Positions 56,834 through 63,891 of a stretch of DNA of 64,000 bases are shown here, in pieces. Within the stretch, counting starts at the first letter, position 1; the number at the start of each line of letters is the position of its first letter. The DNA lies in the NCBI GenBank assembly GCA_016234495.1, contig JACRBI010000008.1:62001-126000 (forward strand). The letters are read 5' to 3'. The position numbers and the translations under genes were made by a program. Origin of the DNA: Chloroflexota bacterium. GTDB lineage: Bacteria; Chloroflexota; Anaerolineae; Anaerolineales; Villigracilaceae. A model generated the notes under the pieces. That model did no database searches. It was not told the origin of the DNA and saw only the letters and a list, made by a program, of their open reading frames with translations.

Positions 56834-57841
56834 TTATGAGTCTGTGGAGGTTTGTACGGCTTGGGGTCTTGGTTTAAAGAGATTTATGACCCAGTTAACG
56901 ATTAAGAAAATGCCGTAGAGCAGGAAGATCGTGAAATAGTCTATGAACGGGATGCGAATGACTTCGTTCCATGCCCCGAGACGGCCCATGTAGGCACATG
57001 TTCCAACGGTGACGACAAGGAAGATCGCTGCGATGATGCGCTTTGTCCATGTACTGAGCCCGAGCCCGTGCATTTGTGTCAGCACGATCATGGCGCCAAA
57101 CCCGAAGGCAAACATCGGCCACATATCCCGCCCCTGAAATATAGCTACGGCTACGCCGTGAATCAACACAAAGACCTCAAGGAAGAACGTCCACCACTTG
57201 TTTAGGTGGGCGCGGTTGAATAACAACACGGCTTGAACAATGATCAGGAAGTTGTAGTAAAAGCCCATCAAATGGCCGGCGGTGTTGGTGGTGGGGTGAT
57301 ACCAGTAATCGTAGATGATCGCCCAGGTGAAGAAGTATCCATGATAATGCCTGATGATCTCTGTGAAGGCCTGGCGGAATTTGAACTTTTTTCCGAAGAT
57401 CAATCCCCGGCGCGGCGCTTCGAGAATGATGATAAAGATCAGCATGAGAGCCACCGAACCGAGTGCAGTGACTTCGGGTACATCCTGCGCAAGACCATCA
57501 TAAAACAATTGAGTCTGAACGATGTGCAGGAGCGAAAAGGCGACGTTTACCGCGATCATCGCCCAATTGAACCAACGCAGGTCGTTGGCGTATTTTGGTT
57601 TCTCGCGGCGCGCGAACCAGATGATGCCCCATGCCAGCAAATTGTGCAAAATGTAGCCCAGCCAGGCGGTCAGTCGCGCCAGATCGCTCCGCTCAACCAG
57701 ACGATATGGATATGCAAAGGGAACCGTGTGCCCGACGATTTCGAAGCGCGTCAGGTTGATGGCAGTGATGCCAATGATCGCCGTCAGTGCGGCAGATGCG
57801 AATACACCGATCCAGATATATTTCAAAGATGAATTTTTCAT
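56834..57841 (-). CDS. Polytopic membrane protein of the heliorhodopsin cluster
   Basis: I do not recognise this 335-residue protein. It has nine or ten predicted membrane segments and an unusual His/Tyr-rich stretch (EIIRHYHGYFFTWAIIYDYW, then YHPTTNTAGHLMGFYY) plus a conserved-looking LLHIVQTQLFYDG. The histidines could bind a metal or cofactor. ATG at 57841 has a GGAG site and lies two bases from the stop of the DUF1295 gene, so the two are coupled. Its position makes it a candidate partner or target of the heliorhodopsin system. Confidence 0.75.
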   Translation of the reverse strand: MKNSSLKYIWIGVFASAALTAIIGITAINLTRFEIVGHTVPFAYPYRLVERSDLARLTAWLGYILHNLLAWGIIWFARREKPKYANDLRWFNWAMIAVNVAFSLLHIVQTQLFYDGLAQDVPEVTALGSVALMLIFIIILEAPRRGLIFGKKFKFRQAFTEIIRHYHGYFFTWAIIYDYWYHPTTNTAGHLMGFYYNFLIIVQAVLLFNRAHLNKWWTFFLEVFVLIHGVAVAIFQGRDMWPMFAFGFGAMIVLTQMHGLGLSTWTKRIIAAIFLVVTVGTCAYMGRLGAWNEVIRIPFIDYFTIFLLYGIFLIVNWVINLFKPRPQAVQTSTDS

Positions 57842-57843
57842 GG

Positions 57844-58731
57844 CTATCTCCAGAGAATCAAGACAGGCGTCTTCTTCTTGTATTCTTCGTAATCCGCCTG
57901 CCCGCCCCATTTTGCGTCCGCTTTCTTCTCAAGCAGGGGGATACCGCTGACGCGGGTGAGGAGCAGGGTCACGAACAGCGGGGAGATCATCGTGACCCAT
58001 TGCCAGCCTTGCAGAACAGGGATGGCGATGATGGCGATGCCGATCCACAGCACGATCTCGCCGAAGTAGTTGGGATGACGCGAGCGCGACCACAATCCTG
58101 TGCGGATGAACCTGCCCTTGTTGGCGGGGTCGGCGTTGAAGCGGCTCTTTTGCGCGTCGGCAACGATTTCGATGACGAAGCCGGTCAGCCAAACCAGGGC
58201 GCCGACGATAGCGAACGCGTCCAAATCCTTTCGTGTGGCAGATGTGATTGCCACCAGCGCGGCCGCGGCAGTGAAGGTGACCCACAGTCCCTGGATGGTC
58301 CACACATTGAGGAAGTGCATGAAGTTCGGCTTGAGTTCGTCGAAGCGGTCATCCTTGCCAGCCTTTTGGATGCGGCTGAAGAGGAATGTGCCGAGACGAA
58401 TCGCCCAGACGATGACCAGCGCCGCCATGAGGATCGAACGCGCGTCGAGTGGAACGGTGTAGCGGCTGTAGCAAAGCGTGACGCCTGTCACGGTGATGTA
58501 GGTGATGCTCCCAGTGATGTCGAAAAACTTTTCGGTCTGATAAATGTAGGCAGGGATGAAGGCCAGCCACTGGATAAGGAAGGCCAGAGCGACGGCGATG
58601 GCGAAGACGGGAATCGTGCCGAGCATCGCGCCGCCCTGACTTCCCGCGAGAGCAACCAGATAGCCAGCCAGAATCAAAATGGGAAATATGATGAGCGAAC
58701 TGCGGTCCGTCTTTTTAATGGAATTTTTCAA
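57844..58731 (-). CDS. DUF1295 / steroid 5-alpha-reductase-like membrane protein
   Basis: This 295-residue protein has about seven membrane segments and the DUF1295 pattern: QTEKFFDITGSITYITVTG, ADAQKSRFNADP, and LWSRSRHPNYFGEIVLWIGI with the family's invariant Arg-His-Pro-Asn-Tyr. Relatives reduce double bonds in lipids or isoprenoids with NADPH. The start is TTG at 58731 (GAGGAG site), since no ATG fits. It lies 29 bp after the heliorhodopsin gene. A role in modifying a membrane isoprenoid or retinoid is an attractive guess, not shown. Confidence 0.8.
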   Translation of the reverse strand: MKNSIKKTDRSSLIIFPILILAGYLVALAGSQGGAMLGTIPVFAIAVALAFLIQWLAFIPAYIYQTEKFFDITGSITYITVTGVTLCYSRYTVPLDARSILMAALVIVWAIRLGTFLFSRIQKAGKDDRFDELKPNFMHFLNVWTIQGLWVTFTAAAALVAITSATRKDLDAFAIVGALVWLTGFVIEIVADAQKSRFNADPANKGRFIRTGLWSRSRHPNYFGEIVLWIGIAIIAIPVLQGWQWVTMISPLFVTLLLTRVSGIPLLEKKADAKWGGQADYEEYKKKTPVLILWR

Positions 58732-58760
58732 GGTTTTCTCCTCGAGCGTCTTTTTTCGTT

Positions 58761-59540
58761 CTATACTGGAGCCAGCGTACCGGCAAAAATCATCCAGGCT
58801 AAAACTGTTTTTGCAACAAGGCTGAGGATAACGAAAGCGCGTTCGCCATACAGGTAGTCTTTCCACGGCCCGATCTTTTTGTATTGCAGGTACATGTTGA
58901 TCGCGAATGTGTTGAAGAACACAAACAGCGTCGGGATGATGGCGTAAACAAAAGCGGGTGGTTTCGCTTCACCGCCGGAGGCGATGGAGCCGAAGAAATA
59001 GATGAAAATTACCAACCAGGGGATGATGCCGGCAATCGAGCCGAAAGTGAATGGTGTCCAGTCCAGTTTTTCCCGGCCCTGATTCAGGCTTTCCATTAGC
59101 AGGCCAAGCAGGTTCATCATGGCGTTCAAACCGAACATCAGGAGGATGGCGCCCAGGTCCCAGACCCCGGCTAACATGCCAATCAGCACAATCATCAATG
59201 ATGAACTGAGGGCATATTCGTAGAAGCGAACGGGATTCTTACCCAGCTTAAGGTTTTCAACATAGTGCGAGTAGCCAATGGTTGAAAGATAGAAGTGCGC
59301 AACCGCCGAGAGTAGCAGGAAGATCGCCACCGAGGGGCCGAGCGGTAGTTCGTAGAAGAGTTTGGCTTGCGGGGAAAGCGAGAAGGTGGCAGTATCAAAA
59401 CTGAGGAAATTTGTAAAGACAGGATAAGTGGTGTCGTTGCTGACGACCCACATAAATGCTCCCTGAATCAAGTGCAGAAATCCCATGATTAAGTTGAAGC
59501 GACGCAGTTTTGAATACTGCTTATCGTTGGTTGCAGACAT
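58761..59540 (-). CDS. Heliorhodopsin
   Basis: This 259-residue protein has seven membrane segments and the heliorhodopsin signature rather than that of type-1 rhodopsins. The retinal-binding lysine is Lys244 in YGERAFVILSLVAKTVLAW, the counter-ion is Glu108 in VRFYEYALSSS, and the conserved His23 (GFLHLIQG) and His82 (AHFYLSTIGYSH) are in place, agreeing with known heliorhodopsins. Residue GREKLDW after helix five is also typical. ATG at 59540 has an AAAGGAG site. It does not look like a pump; function of the family is debated. It lies 130 bp after a CarH-like regulator gene. Confidence 0.93.
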   Translation of the reverse strand: MSATNDKQYSKLRRFNLIMGFLHLIQGAFMWVVSNDTTYPVFTNFLSFDTATFSLSPQAKLFYELPLGPSVAIFLLLSAVAHFYLSTIGYSHYVENLKLGKNPVRFYEYALSSSLMIVLIGMLAGVWDLGAILLMFGLNAMMNLLGLLMESLNQGREKLDWTPFTFGSIAGIIPWLVIFIYFFGSIASGGEAKPPAFVYAIIPTLFVFFNTFAINMYLQYKKIGPWKDYLYGERAFVILSLVAKTVLAWMIFAGTLAPV

Positions 59541-59670
59541 TGGTTTTACTCCTTTGAGTTTGCGGGTTGTTTTTTTAAGTTTGATACCCGTCGCGGCTTT
59601 TGAGTGGCTGCAACGGGGTGTAGGCTTTGAACAGATACAATAGTGGAAAATAGATTTAAGATCTCCTTGT

Positions 59671-60984
59671 TTATGTTTTGAGGCCGGCGCTTTCAAGTTT
59701 CAACCAATCGCTGATTTCCTTTCCTTCGTCTTTCATCACCATGTCAACTGATTGGGCATACGCCGTTAGATAGGCTGGCAACATGGCAGCGGAAATTTGA
59801 TGGCTGGTCAACAGGTTGCTGATCCACATGATGTCTGTGGACAGGTGGGAGATGTCTCCGAGTTCGAGCGCGGCGATCAGGCTGTCGCCGAGGAAGCGGT
59901 TGGCGAAGTCGATATATTCGGCGGGGCGGACGCGCGTCTCGATGGCGTCGGTCAGCGCGGCTTCGATTTGATGGCGCGCGGTTTGAAATGCCGATGACAT
60001 TTGCAGGAGTGATTTCTTGACTCGCTCCTCCGCAGGCGTGGGGCGCGGATTGACGACCAGTTCTTCGATCACGGGAAGTGACTGCTCGATGGTGTTGCCG
60101 AGAAAGTGGGCAGGGATGCGCGCTTGCAATCCGCTGATAGAGTTGAACACGCTGCCGCCGAACGCCGATGCAATTCCCTTTTTGTTCAGCGCGCGCGCCA
60201 TCTCTCGCAGAGACACTGCGTTGACAAGAGTCTGCGCGGCAAGGATCACCAGTTTGGATTTCGTGACAGCGAGCGTCTCTTCGATCTGGTCAATGGGTAC
60301 GTTCGCACCGAGGTGGATCGCGTTCCAGCCGCGGCGCCGCAAAAACAGGGTGAGCAACAACAATGGGAACGCGTGCCCCTCGTTGGGAGGGCAGGCCAGC
60401 AAAATGGCTTCGTTTCGAGCGGGCGGCGGCGTGGCGCTGATGAGCGCCTGCAATTTGCGTGTGGCAATTTCCGACGTGAAATGCTCCTGCTGAACGGTGG
60501 CTTTTCCCTGATGCCAGAGTCCTCCGATCTCGGACATGCCGCGCATGACGATTTCCACGCAGGCGACCTCAACCGAATTGGCGGCAAACGCCTGATTTAA
60601 GATTTGCTCGGCGTGGGATGTTTCGTACTTGAGACAGGCGGATAGCCAATCGCTTCGCATCGCTTCCAGGCTGGAAGTGGGTGCGCCGGCCCGGGCAACG
60701 GTCAGCGCTGACGAGGCCGCACCAGCCAACGGGTCGGAGCCTGACGCGAGTTGTTCGTTCCACATGTCCACCGCGTGAGAAATCGAAAGTCCCTCGGCTT
60801 GTCGCGCCAACAGCCATCTGATCGTCTCGATGTCAAATTGCGAATAGAGACGGTGGCCGCCTGCGGTGCGCTGGGGGAGGGGCAGGCCGTAGCGGCGTTC
60901 CCAGGCGCGCAGAGTGTCGGCGGGAAGGCCTGTCTCGTTGAGCACGACTTTTAAATTGAAGGTGGGAGATTTGCTGATGGACAT
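59671..60984 (-). CDS. MerR-family B12-binding (CarH/LitR-like) light regulator
   Basis: This 437-residue regulator has a MerR helix-turn-helix (FNLKVVLNETGLPADTLRAW, then RRYGLPLPQRTAGGHRLYS), a helical B12-cap region with the CarH W-x9-EH motif as Trp157 to Glu167-His168, and a cobalamin domain with His204 in PPNEGHAFPLLLL as likely axial ligand. CarH proteins hold DNA in the dark with adenosyl-B12 and release it in light. About 125 residues at the C-terminus are extra to CarH and may form another sensor or oligomer domain. AGGAG precedes the ATG. It very likely controls itself and the heliorhodopsin operon. Confidence 0.88.
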   Translation of the reverse strand: MSISKSPTFNLKVVLNETGLPADTLRAWERRYGLPLPQRTAGGHRLYSQFDIETIRWLLARQAEGLSISHAVDMWNEQLASGSDPLAGAASSALTVARAGAPTSSLEAMRSDWLSACLKYETSHAEQILNQAFAANSVEVACVEIVMRGMSEIGGLWHQGKATVQQEHFTSEIATRKLQALISATPPPARNEAILLACPPNEGHAFPLLLLTLFLRRRGWNAIHLGANVPIDQIEETLAVTKSKLVILAAQTLVNAVSLREMARALNKKGIASAFGGSVFNSISGLQARIPAHFLGNTIEQSLPVIEELVVNPRPTPAEERVKKSLLQMSSAFQTARHQIEAALTDAIETRVRPAEYIDFANRFLGDSLIAALELGDISHLSTDIMWISNLLTSHQISAAMLPAYLTAYAQSVDMVMKDEGKEISDWLKLESAGLKT

Positions 60985-61016: not shown

Positions 61017-61044
61017 ATTATACACGGCGTCCATTATTTGTCAA
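61017..61044 (-). promoter_or_regulatory. Consensus promoter of the light-cluster regulator
   Basis: On the minus strand TTGACA (61039-61044) and TATAAT (61017-61022) are exact consensus hexamers, 16 bp apart, about 33 bases before the regulator ATG. Such a strong promoter fits a repressor-controlled gene. Confidence 0.75.
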
Positions 61045-61070
61045 GATATACTGTGCAAAATATTGACAAA
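61037..61070. promoter_or_regulatory. Candidate operator of the CarH-like regulator
   Basis: TTTGTCAA (61037-61044) and TTGACAAA (61063-61070) are perfect inverted arms 18 bases apart; the first arm overlaps the -35 box. A repressor bound here would block the promoter. CarH sites elsewhere contain repeated TGTACA-like units, and TGTGCA is present at 61052-61057. Confidence 0.55.
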
Positions 61071-61122: not shown

Positions 61123-61317
61123 GAAGCGACCCGTCGGGTCAAGTCAAATTTCCCCGTGTGCAGAGTTGTCGCGCTGACCGTACCCGATTACGAGTCGACG
61201 CGTGAGAAAGCCAAACAATCTGGGGTGGACGATATCCTTGTCAAAGGCGCGCCAGTCAAAACAATCATTCTAGCTATTTTGAATCAAATTCCCGCGACTT
61301 TCCCCATGTCAGGATAA
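61123..61317 (+). pseudogene. Remnant of a response-regulator receiver domain
   Basis: The plus-strand frame reads VCRVVALTVPDYESTREKAK, then GVDDILVKGAP and ILAILNQIP before the stop at 61315. This matches the second half of a NarL-type receiver (LT..D, GAD..L.KGAP). The first half with the phospho-acceptor Asp and the output domain are missing. It overlaps the end of the minus-strand gene at 61274 by 44 bases. Confidence 0.5.
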
Positions 61318-61471
61318 CGCCGAAAATAACCGCGAAGCGGAAACTGGTTTCCCAGTCTATGATACTTTCGCCGTGTCCAATGAGGTTCCAGAGAAATGCC
61401 ACGAGCATAACAGTGACCAGGGTCACTGCGAATACGGTTACAAATTCAATGACCAGTTTTTTGATATTCAT
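61274..61471 (-). CDS. Small two-helix membrane protein
   Basis: This 65-residue protein has two membrane segments (VIEFVTVFAVTLVTVMLVAF and FRFAVIFGVILTW) and a basic start. ATG at 61471 has an AAAGGAG site, which supports a real gene. Its start overlaps the end of the preceding gene by 26 bases. No family recognised; it belongs to the run of small membrane proteins at the right edge. Confidence 0.6.
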   Translation of the reverse strand: MNIKKLVIEFVTVFAVTLVTVMLVAFLWNLIGHGESIIDWETSFRFAVIFGVILTWGKSREFDSK

Positions 61472-61904
61472 TTTTCTCTCCTTTGGAAAGGGAATAGCCC
61501 GACAAGCCAATGCCTACAATATATAAAATACTCTGAAGGACATTGACCTGCCAGCGTCCATGCCCAATGTATGAGGAGGCAAGAAAAGCCATCACTTCGA
61601 TAAAACCGATCACGAAAACCAGCGTCCAGAAAGCTGATTTTTCACCGGCGACCAGATTTTTGCGGATGAGCGGCCACGTCAGCACGGAAACCATCAGCGC
61701 GCAGGAGTTGTACAGGATCGTAAAGCAATTGAGCGCAGCAATCGTCTTGGCGCTAAGCCCTGCAATTTCAGCTTCTGAAAAAGACGCCACCTGCAAAATT
61801 GGGGAGTCTTTCTTGAGCACGATGACATAGCACAATATGGTAAAGGCAAGGATAAAGTTGATGTCACACCAGATTGAAAGGACTATCGAACCTTTTTTCA
61901 ACAT
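61446..61904 (-). CDS. Hypothetical four-helix membrane protein
   Basis: This 152-residue protein has four membrane segments (starting SIVLSIWCDINFILAFTIL) with short loops. No family recognised, though the pattern recalls small DUF-type membrane proteins next to DUF4386 genes. AAGGAG precedes the ATG. Co-directional with the neighbours on both sides. Confidence 0.65.
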   Translation of the reverse strand: MLKKGSIVLSIWCDINFILAFTILCYVIVLKKDSPILQVASFSEAEIAGLSAKTIAALNCFTILYNSCALMVSVLTWPLIRKNLVAGEKSAFWTLVFVIGFIEVMAFLASSYIGHGRWQVNVLQSILYIVGIGLSGYSLSKGEKNEYQKTGH

Positions 61905-61937: not shown

Positions 61938-62621
61938 TCAGGAAGGTTTCTGCTCTTTTGCGCCCATGATTAGAAGCCACAAGGTTAGCCCAAATTCTGC
62001 AATGAAGCCAAGCGGATAGCTTACATAGGTGATGGCCGTGAAACCTGGGAAGAGGAAAGACTGAAGGAAGGTTGACAACCAGGTAAAACAATGAACCATC
62101 AGCACGACTCCTAAAAATTTGGGAAAGAAGCCTGACTTGTAAACCAAATAGCCAAGCGGAAAGAGCCAGGCGCCAGAGAATAGCCAGGCGACAGTAAACG
62201 TTTTTTCGCGTAGATCGAGAAAGAACATTGCCAGAGATTGCAATTGATCCACCTGGAATACGTTCAAGTAATCAGGACCATTCATCAACAACTGGCTGGC
62301 AACCAGAAAAAGATCACTAGCACATTGGATAACGAAACTGCCCATGTTTAATAACAAGAACAGGAGAGCAAGGTTCTTATTAACCGGTTTGAGCAAAACG
62401 TAGAGAGCCCAGGCGGCCAAAAAGAAAAGCGCAGCGGCGAGTAGATCGCCTACAACAGTGATGGTGAATAACCCTTCATGAGCCATGATATTATTGACTG
62501 TTGTTGCGGCATCTCCAGACACGATATAGCTATCGCGCCATACGTCACTACTGATATGAGTCACCATGTAAACGAGGTACAGGAGCCCCGCCATTCTTGC
62601 GGTTTTATTGATTGAATTCAT
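61938..62621 (-). CDS. DUF4386-family membrane protein
   Basis: This 227-residue protein has six membrane segments and the DUF4386 pattern: TARMAGLLYLVYMVTHISSD, VGDLLAAALFFLAAWALYVL, and FPLGYLVYKSGFFPKFLG. Function unknown. AAGGAG precedes the ATG. A related protein is encoded at 62742. Confidence 0.85.
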   Translation of the reverse strand: MNSINKTARMAGLLYLVYMVTHISSDVWRDSYIVSGDAATTVNNIMAHEGLFTITVVGDLLAAALFFLAAWALYVLLKPVNKNLALLFLLLNMGSFVIQCASDLFLVASQLLMNGPDYLNVFQVDQLQSLAMFFLDLREKTFTVAWLFSGAWLFPLGYLVYKSGFFPKFLGVVLMVHCFTWLSTFLQSFLFPGFTAITYVSYPLGFIAEFGLTLWLLIMGAKEQKPS

Positions 62622-62673
62622 TTTTTATCTCCTTGTTGTGATTAATTTTGATGAGTTTCATTTCGCTGAGCGG

Positions 62674-62716
62674 GCAGGGTTTTAGAGATGGCCTTCAGCC
62701 CTCCCTAAAACCCTGC
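62674..62716. repeat. 12-bp perfect inverted repeat between DUF4386 genes
   Basis: GCAGGGTTTTAG (62674-62685) is exactly complementary to 62705-62716, with a 19-nt loop. No T-run follows, so it is more likely a repeat than a terminator. Confidence 0.6.
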
Positions 62717-62741
62717 AGGAAATCTATGCTGCGCTCAAAAG

Positions 62742-63467
62742 CTAGTTCGTCTCTGTTTTCGCAGACTGAGAAGCGATTACAGATGGATTGAATCCTTTAA
62801 CGATCAGCCAGACCGCCAGCACCATTTCTTGCAGCATGATCGGGAGCATGAGGAGCATCTGGGGCGGAGAAAATGCCTCAATCAATCCAAACATCGCGGT
62901 AAAGGCGCCTATCAACATCAGCAGCAGACCCAACAGGCCCCAGGCAGATAACCAACGGGGCAGGAGCCTGGTTCGGTAAAATACTGTGTAGTAGATGGCA
63001 GCCCCCATGCACCAGGGAAAGAGGTAGAATCCGTTGCTCATCCATTCCCTCACCGATTTGATGGCTGCGGCAGCGGGCTGGAAAAAGGAATCGGCAGGGC
63101 TGCCGGCCTTTACAAATTCCTGGCTCAAAGCCAACAGAACCGCCAAACTGACGGCGCTTGCGACCTGGAGCGTCCCTTCCATAACACGGAAACCCACCAC
63201 GCCTAGGGCCAGTGTCTCGTCATGGGGTTTAAGAACCGAGTACATCGAGATACCGATACCGGCGCAGGCCAAGCCCATGAACATGCCGCTGAGAGCCAGC
63301 AGCAACACCTCGTTGCTGTATGCCGCCATCAGAGACAGGTAGTCCGGGGATGAAACGGACTGCCCCCACAAGGACATCGCAACCATCACCGGTACAGTTC
63401 CCAGAATGAACAAGATGCCTGTGATTCGAGCGCTTTTTCTTGAATTACTCATGCTGTATGCGTTCAT
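62742..63467 (-). CDS. DUF4386-like membrane protein
   Basis: This 242-residue protein has six or seven membrane segments and starts SRKSARITGILFILGTVPVM, a diverged version of the DUF4386 opening; the segment TRLLPRWLSAWGLLGLLLML near the end matches the family. ATG at 63467 has an AAAGGAG site. Function unknown. Confidence 0.75.
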   Translation of the reverse strand: MNAYSMSNSRKSARITGILFILGTVPVMVAMSLWGQSVSSPDYLSLMAAYSNEVLLLALSGMFMGLACAGIGISMYSVLKPHDETLALGVVGFRVMEGTLQVASAVSLAVLLALSQEFVKAGSPADSFFQPAAAAIKSVREWMSNGFYLFPWCMGAAIYYTVFYRTRLLPRWLSAWGLLGLLLMLIGAFTAMFGLIEAFSPPQMLLMLPIMLQEMVLAVWLIVKGFNPSVIASQSAKTETN

Positions 63468-63489
63468 TTTTCTCTCCTTTTTACTGTGC

Positions 63490-63891
63490 TCAAATAGGTT
63501 CAACTACCGGTTTCCATTTCCAGGTAAACCAGATAGTTAGTAATATGCATGCAACTTCCACTGTTTCAAACAACACATAATACAAACCGTGCCCGCCTAT
63601 AACGATATGTACAATCATGTAGGCGCCAATGATGATGCTTACCCAGCGATTTACTTTGTAGCTCAATACCCAGGACAGCATAACCGGGGAAATTGAAGCA
63701 ATCATTAATATTGCGCCCGCCAGCAAACCACCCGCAGGCAATGGAGCTCCCGCCATTACTTCACGGATCGGAGATGTGGGATCCAGCAATGAAACAATAT
63801 CCGCATAAACCATAAGCAAGACTACAAATATCCATAGCAATGAGAGTTTTACCCTTGGGTCAATTCCAGCTGCTGATTTTTGTGTGTTCAT
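63490..63891 (-). CDS. Hypothetical four-helix membrane protein
   Basis: This 133-residue protein has four membrane segments (LLWIFVVLLMVYADIVSLL, LLAGAILMIASISPVMLSW, VSIIIGAYMIVHIVIGG, VEVACILLTIWFTW). ATG at 63891 has a GGAG site. The frame is open further upstream to the window edge without a stop, so a fusion with the preceding gene cannot be ruled out. No family recognised. Confidence 0.65.
   Translation of the reverse strand: MNTQKSAAGIDPRVKLSLLWIFVVLLMVYADIVSLLDPTSPIREVMAGAPLPAGGLLAGAILMIASISPVMLSWVLSYKVNRWVSIIIGAYMIVHIVIGGHGLYYVLFETVEVACILLTIWFTWKWKPVVEPI

Follow-up and report, generated by a model that had tools for sequence, protein, structure and literature searches.

Light-type B12 regulators such as CarH of Thermus thermophilus, Bacillus megaterium and Myxococcus join a MerR helix-turn-helix (HTH) to a B12-binding domain, and the available part of PMC8156234 defines them by a W-x9-EH motif together with B12-binding His residues. 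According to the accessible portions of PMC9304148 and PMC8156234, the CarH operator consists of 11-bp repeats in tandem that carry TnnACA, and the -35 element of the promoter can lie in one of them. In the photocobilins SasPcob and AbPcob (8j2w, 8j2x, 8j2y), the B12 domain is combined with a C-terminal five-helix globin-type domain. The function of heliorhodopsin (HeR) is largely open; MerR is named among ten frequent HeR neighbours in classified HeR operons (PMC11109279, in the portion available), and a literature search returned no paper joining heliorhodopsin with CarH or with DUF1295. PMC7110647, which was matched for heliorhodopsin and cobalamin, draws no link between the two in its accessible text. 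Here, a four-gene HeR operon is described in a stretch of 64,000 nucleotides from a Chloroflexota bacterium (contig JACRBI010000008.1; G000:C45:62001-126000; hereafter, the window), whose genome comprises 4.1 Mb and is 98% complete. The operon is real and places HeR under a photoreceptor of MerR-B12-globin-type architecture. It is probably a shortened photoprotection locus under a B12 photoreceptor-repressor, in which HeR would be an acquired, optional and light-derepressed member.

The locus shares with the CarH systems the MerR HTH, the B12 domain with W-x9-EH and ExH motifs, carotenoid-gene neighbours in relatives and 11-bp repeat operators, here putative, overlapping the -35 element. Unlike CarH, its regulator bears an extra C-terminal domain of about 125 residues and is predicted to control HeR in this clade. 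With the photocobilins it shares the succession of B12 and C-terminal five-helix domains and the equivalent of Trp296, but it differs from them in possessing a DNA-binding HTH, in lacking the bilin-contact Asp270 and in occurring in hosts without heme oxygenase. As in the HeR operons of PMC11109279, HeR adjoins a MerR-family regulator in one operon, whereas the text available from that source describes no B12 binding, operators or photoprotection cluster. Similarly, the links of HeR to photolyase and oxidative stress reported in the accessible parts of PMC9769723 and PMC8612252 also bring HeR near light-damage genes; in contrast to these, HeR is linked here by way of a B12 photoreceptor regulon, and no photolyase match was obtained in the window genome.

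In the list of open reading frames, the four genes lie head to tail on the minus strand from 60984 to 56834, exactly as a preliminary description had placed them, with intergenic gaps of 130, then 29 and then 2 bp, and they are presumably co-transcribed:

59671 to 60984, minus strand: regulator of 437 residues, with MerR HTH, cobalamin-binding domain carrying the CarH photoreceptor motif, and C-terminal photocobilin-like five-helix domain
58761 to 59540, minus strand: heliorhodopsin of 259 residues, identified by Pfam and NCBIfam (a longer version with a TTG start is also listed)
57844 to 58731, minus strand: DUF1295 membrane protein of 295 residues, steroid-reductase/ICMT-like, TTG start, identified by Pfam
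56834 to 57841, minus strand: polytopic protein of 335 residues, unnamed family, with seven conserved histidines

The identity of HeR is supported by its matches to PF18761 (E 8.9e-99, 330.2 bits, cut-off 26.7) and NF038020 (353.4 bits, cut-off 100). Lys244, Glu108, His23 and His82, all previously pointed out in the protein, were found to be invariant across nine aligned HeRs; we take Lys244 to be the Schiff-base lysine and Glu108 the counter-ion.

The regulator matches MerR and two B12-binding families in Pfam and NCBIfam. All 53 homologues retain its W157-x9-E167-H168 motif as well as H204 of the B12 motif E202-x-H204, in which E202 is present in 52 and replaced by Asp in one. In the ExHx2G...GG motif, the GG pair is found in 52/53, and the position after x2, a G in only 6/53, is occupied by Pro207 in the window. 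The preliminary description had called this protein CarH-like, which is right for the W-x9-EH motif and the cobalamin-binding His but not for the extra C-terminal domain and the photocobilin-type fold. These last 125 residues or so form a separate domain, with five helices in a structural model built from 7 sequences (mean pLDDT 84.4). The best PDB matches of the model found by Foldseek were photocobilins, and VIA-align over residues 102-437 gave Z scores of 29.9, 29.8 and 29.2 for 8j2x, 8j2w and 8j2y, the top alignment covering 321 residues at 2.6 Å over that whole span, versus 22.8 for the best CarH B12 domain; most rows of the structure-match table barely test the regulator outside residues 104-326. 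The profile (HMM) match to 8j2y is continuous over residues 145-409, with the B12 domain contributing most of its score; taken by itself, the C-terminal domain had no significant sequence match in the PDB, where 8j2y ranked below chance-level matches (E 1.8 and 1.0). Judging from the model, the architecture is photocobilin-like and not that of a plain CarH. MerR-B12-globin-type regulators of this kind, distinct from CarH, are widespread in the class.

The surroundings of the regulator in other genomes define the cluster to which it belongs. Among the 41 best-scoring regulator loci, photolyase was found in 17, phytoene synthase in 16, CrtI in 14, a TIGR01777-type oxidoreductase in 19, DUF1295 in 8 and the polytopic gene in 2. 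Nine regulator loci of the same family hold CrtI in all nine, CrtB, photolyase and P450 in eight each, DUF1295 in seven (one of these matches being at only 32% identity) and HeR in none; in G027, the only one of these genomes known to carry HeR, the HeR gene lies about 387 kb from the regulator cluster. Under fixed thresholds, at least one of 12 module genes occurred in 25/41 regulator stretches and at least one of 13 in 10/45 HeR stretches, the latter representing 44 of the 48 HeR genomes with the own genome and three fragments set aside, compared with 0/20 arbitrary control stretches of the same genomes. Since the cluster occurs without HeR and module genes are enriched at regulator loci, the regulator and the photoprotection genes appear to be the older unit and HeR its variable part. 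The locus centres on the regulator rather than on HeR.

The link between regulator and HeR is nevertheless recurrent in relatives. A scan of relatives kept 80 of 158, of which nine (L032-L039 and L045) carry close HeRs of 86-97% identity. The regulator lies directly upstream of HeR in 6/9, two genes intervene in L038, and the loci of L037 and L039 are cut by a contig end; the pair was also found in one distant genome, L116 (G285). In the DNA available, short for many, from the other 66 kept loci (L046-L111), the regulator was found in none. The regulator as the upstream gene of HeR is therefore a recurring arrangement, but the exact four-gene order of the window was met in 0/9 close relatives. 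DUF1295 is present downstream of HeR in 8/9 and adjacent to it in 0/8, with DUF1475, DUF3159 and other genes in between, and the polytopic gene is whole in 4/9, with a 125-residue piece in L033. Several of these clusters hold carotenoid genes, photolyase, P450, a pyrimidine-dimer glycosylase and Rieske genes, the neighbours having been named by their Pfam matches. The neighbours proposed earlier are thus kept, as partners of the regulator and the photoprotection genes and not of HeR. The glycosylase (PF03013), a further link to UV repair, was seen in the HeR clusters of L037, L038 and L032 (9889-10329). In L045 (8001-9022), the HeR frame is in two pieces of 117 and 153 residues with intact neighbours, representing a broken copy or an assembly error.

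The history of HeR within the locus was approached on the tree of 22 regulators, on which the presence of HeR needs six changes, three of them forced by well-supported branches; the window groups with L032 and L036 in a supported clade whose three members all carry HeR. HeR would accordingly have been gained or lost at least three times and is best described as an optional part of the locus. It is, at the same time, under purifying selection and the most strongly constrained of the three genes compared between the window and L032 (dN/dS of 0.04 in HeR, against 0.13 in DUF1295 and 0.21 in the regulator). Judged by fourfold sites, HeR is the younger and DUF1295 the older gene in the pairs window-L035 (.34 vs.62, p 7e-5), window-L033 (.39 vs.63, p 4e-4) and L033-L034 (.24 vs.65, p 1e-9), by Fisher tests on counts rebuilt from rounded proportions. 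The pattern is not uniform across pairs: no difference was observed for window-L032 (.32 vs.35, p.6), and it is reversed in L036 pairs (HeR.60-.62; DUF1295.47 with L033 and L035).

Operator-like repeats provide a further connection. In 18/53 loci, the 150 bp preceding the regulator gene contain a pair of TnnACA at 11 bp, compared with a mean of 0.47 in shuffled sequences (sd 0.72, max 3) and with 0/166 upstream of control open reading frames; the spacing shows a single peak of 22 pairs at 11 bp, with at most 3 pairs at any other distance. In the window, each strand carries one TTGACA half-site, paired with a weaker one at 11 bp; these lie over and beside the -35 element:

61017 to 61044, minus strand: promoter TTGACA-16-TATAAT, 12/12 sigma-70 consensus, upstream of the regulator gene
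61052 to 61068, plus strand: putative operator, upstream arm, with TGTGCA and TTGACA half-sites 11 bp apart (pattern match at 61053-61069)
within the 61017 to 61044 region, minus strand: second putative half-site pair, noted by eye, in which the promoter -35 TTGACA is itself a TnnACA and TGGACG follows 11 bp on

Promoter-like sites in the region number 4, with 3.9 expected from shuffles, and the one at 61044-61017 is the single 12/12 site. Because one half-site is TGTGCA, the window pair is looser than the published TnnACA pair. A looser KKRCAA pair is present at 16/53 regulator loci, including the window (shuffles 0.14, max 2); 20 control stretches together yielded 2 matches. The looser pair stands beside crtB in nine loci at 49-87 bp, 135 bp before HeR in L126, of another family, before TIGR01777-photolyase-polytopic clusters in L202 and L208, before TIGR01777-polytopic in L212 and before the polytopic gene in L194 and L211. 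Strict TnnACA pairs occur within 200 bp upstream of HeR in 3/42 and of the polytopic gene in 4/39 cases (counts made without shuffles). Across homologous loci, these repeats support a link between regulator and operon, and the window itself may carry such an operator.

Under the preferred reading, darkness would leave the adenosylcobalamin-bound regulator on the 11-bp-repeat half-sites overlapping its own promoter -35, keeping the operon off. Upon illumination, the Co-C bond would break and the regulator oligomer would fall apart, so that the regulator, HeR, the DUF1295 protein and the polytopic protein could be made. HeR would then come into play after light induction, serving as a slow photosensor in the membrane or as a protective partner beside lipid- and membrane-related proteins. 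Light derepression and the HeR output are predictions, and the reading implies that HeR is made on light exposure and that B12 is needed. What is directly seen in its favour comprises the gene order, the CarH residues, the modelled photocobilin-like fold, the repeats at many homologous loci, the cluster without HeR in relatives and the purifying selection on HeR; the PduO-type adenosyltransferase of the genome also speaks for it. Several results weigh against it. The window is not among the 18 loci with a strict TnnACA pair, which is absent at 35/53 regulator loci; the KKRCAA pattern was derived from these same sequences, and across the whole window its pair gave 1 match versus 0.72 expected by chance. 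The regulator scored 134.6 bits against the NCBIfam CarH equivalog NF052513, below the cut-off of 400. Finally, the link of regulator and HeR is rare, since the two adjoin in 2/48 HeR-bearing genomes of the class (the own and G285; three of the 48 are outside the adjacency sample) and HeR is present in 0/41 best-scoring regulator stretches.

Other explanations read the same neighbourhoods differently. HeR could contact a protein encoded beside it, namely the DegV-type fatty-acid-binding protein, DUF1295 or the polytopic protein. DegV lies directly after HeR in 8/9 close relatives, beside it in L116 and near it in L128, and the accessible portions of PMC9529153, PMC9769723 and PMC11109279 offer precedents in which HeR is paired with glutamine synthetase, photolyase and an ABC transporter. 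However, neither the window operon nor L036 contains DegV; DUF1295 and the polytopic gene usually occur without HeR; and DegV, DUF1295 and others stay in the same cluster when HeR is missing, so direct partnership is unlikely. The younger fourfold-site age of HeR in several pairs, and its six changes (at least three) on the regulator tree, where HeR-positive labels are not more clustered than shuffled ones (120/500 shuffles as low), would also suit a passenger brought in by recombination between related clusters, without a functional tie to the regulator. Such a passenger would hardly be expected to take up the same position after the regulator in six relatives, with a dN/dS of 0.04-0.08 in four non-saturated pairs and with HeR stretches of other families enriched for module genes (10/45 vs 0/20), and this explanation is considered very unlikely.

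The regulator might, on the other hand, be a true dual-chromophore photocobilin that binds a bilin besides B12 and also responds to red light. In agreement with this, the model matches 8j2x, 8j2w and 8j2y over the whole B12 and C-terminal unit, and W387, the equivalent of SasPcob Trp296, is kept in 53/53 homologues. By an ungapped count from that Trp, however, the position of the bilin-contact Asp270 is Ala361 in the window and is never Asp in the 53 homologues, heme oxygenase (PF01126) was found in 0/43 regulator-bearing genomes in a search with positive controls, and the C-terminal domain lacks significant sequence similarity to photocobilins. AbPcob also has no Asp270 equivalent and shows weak biliverdin binding. 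Given the missing Asp and the missing heme oxygenase, a second, bilin chromophore is doubtful, and a red-light-responsive regulator of this kind distinctly unlikely.

The two downstream membrane proteins had been described as reductase-like and as unrecognised and His-rich, respectively, and both descriptions hold: the former matches PF06966 (E 2.6e-66, 223.9 bits, gathering score 20.4), and for the 335-residue polytopic protein neither Pfam nor NCBIfam gave a match at E 0.01, nor was a sequence relative found in the PDB at E 1. When five members of its family were compared with Pfam at E 5, none was returned for the window protein, and one member hit an unrelated family at 0.47. The further proposal that the four genes make up a complete light-response unit, with these two proteins as partners of HeR, is not supported, as DUF1295 never adjoins HeR in the close relatives, is present in 7/9 same-family clusters without HeR, and the polytopic gene is mostly found without it. 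Homologues of the latter were found in 62/396 genomes of the class (64 at E 0.001, two being marginal) and HeR in 48/396, with both in 5, where 7.5 would be expected (P 0.20 for this few). Among 40 polytopic loci of the class, a TIGR01777-type gene occurred in 13, the regulator in 4, photolyase and phytoene synthase in 3 each and HeR in none. The family is therefore associated with light clusters and, by co-occurrence, is not a HeR partner. Each of its seven conserved histidines is found in 42 or more of the 44 homologues, and five of them in 44/44; the AlphaFold model was unusable (mean pLDDT 44.6). These histidines suggested a retinal-forming enzyme of the Blh/BCD type, an idea that was set aside, with no PF15461 match and rare co-occurrence with HeR, and which leaves the protein a weak candidate for that role.

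The own genome gave no match for phytoene/squalene synthase, photolyase, Blh, RPE65, heme oxygenase or CobO, and it contains a PduO-type adenosyltransferase. Because the genome is 98% complete, a host gene may have been missed. PF15461 was above its cut-off in 0/48 HeR genomes (one sub-threshold match; none in the own genome), RPE65 was present in 3/48 and the phytoene synthase family in 19/48, the own genome belonging to neither group. PMC7734400 offers a precedent for a rhodopsin that functions in the absence of known retinal genes. As the host lacks the searched-for carotenoid, photolyase and retinal genes, the operon looks like a remnant of a larger light-protection cluster that has stayed intact under selection. 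A bolder reading, which we regard as very doubtful, is a two-tier light circuit, in which a DNA-binding photocobilin-type repressor would allow a retinal membrane photoreceptor to be made, the operon persisting in a lineage that lacks those known carotenoid, retinal, photolyase and bilin genes that were looked for. If true, it would imply an unrecognised retinal source and possibly a new ligand in the globin-type domain of the regulator, and the seven-histidine polytopic protein would be a candidate for a metal or heme enzyme with a part in the response.

For the preferred reading, in turn, the comparative evidence would put HeR in a regulon with a defined light switch, B12 chemistry acting at an 11-bp-repeat operator, and with defined companions, namely carotenoid synthesis, photolyase, DegV and DUF1295. 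It would also make HeR-positive and HeR-negative versions of the same cluster comparable, and it ties a widespread, unnamed seven-histidine membrane family to light-response loci.

Some minor observations concern the same genes and their surroundings. The polytopic family is widespread in the class, including L194, L202, L208, L211 and L212, and often stands beside a TIGR01777-type gene. In an Acidimicrobiaceae locus (L100:8031-9600), a DUF1295 gene with 55% identity to that of the window abuts HeR on the opposite strand, and in five Lokiarchaeota HeR loci DUF1295 is 5-8 kb distant. Upstream of the operon, 49 residues encoded at 61168-61314 on the plus strand resemble by eye the remnant or end of a receiver domain, which is not claimed because Pfam found no match. 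Farther upstream lie an unnamed membrane protein of 152 residues (61446-61904) and two consecutive DUF4386 membrane proteins (61938-63503).

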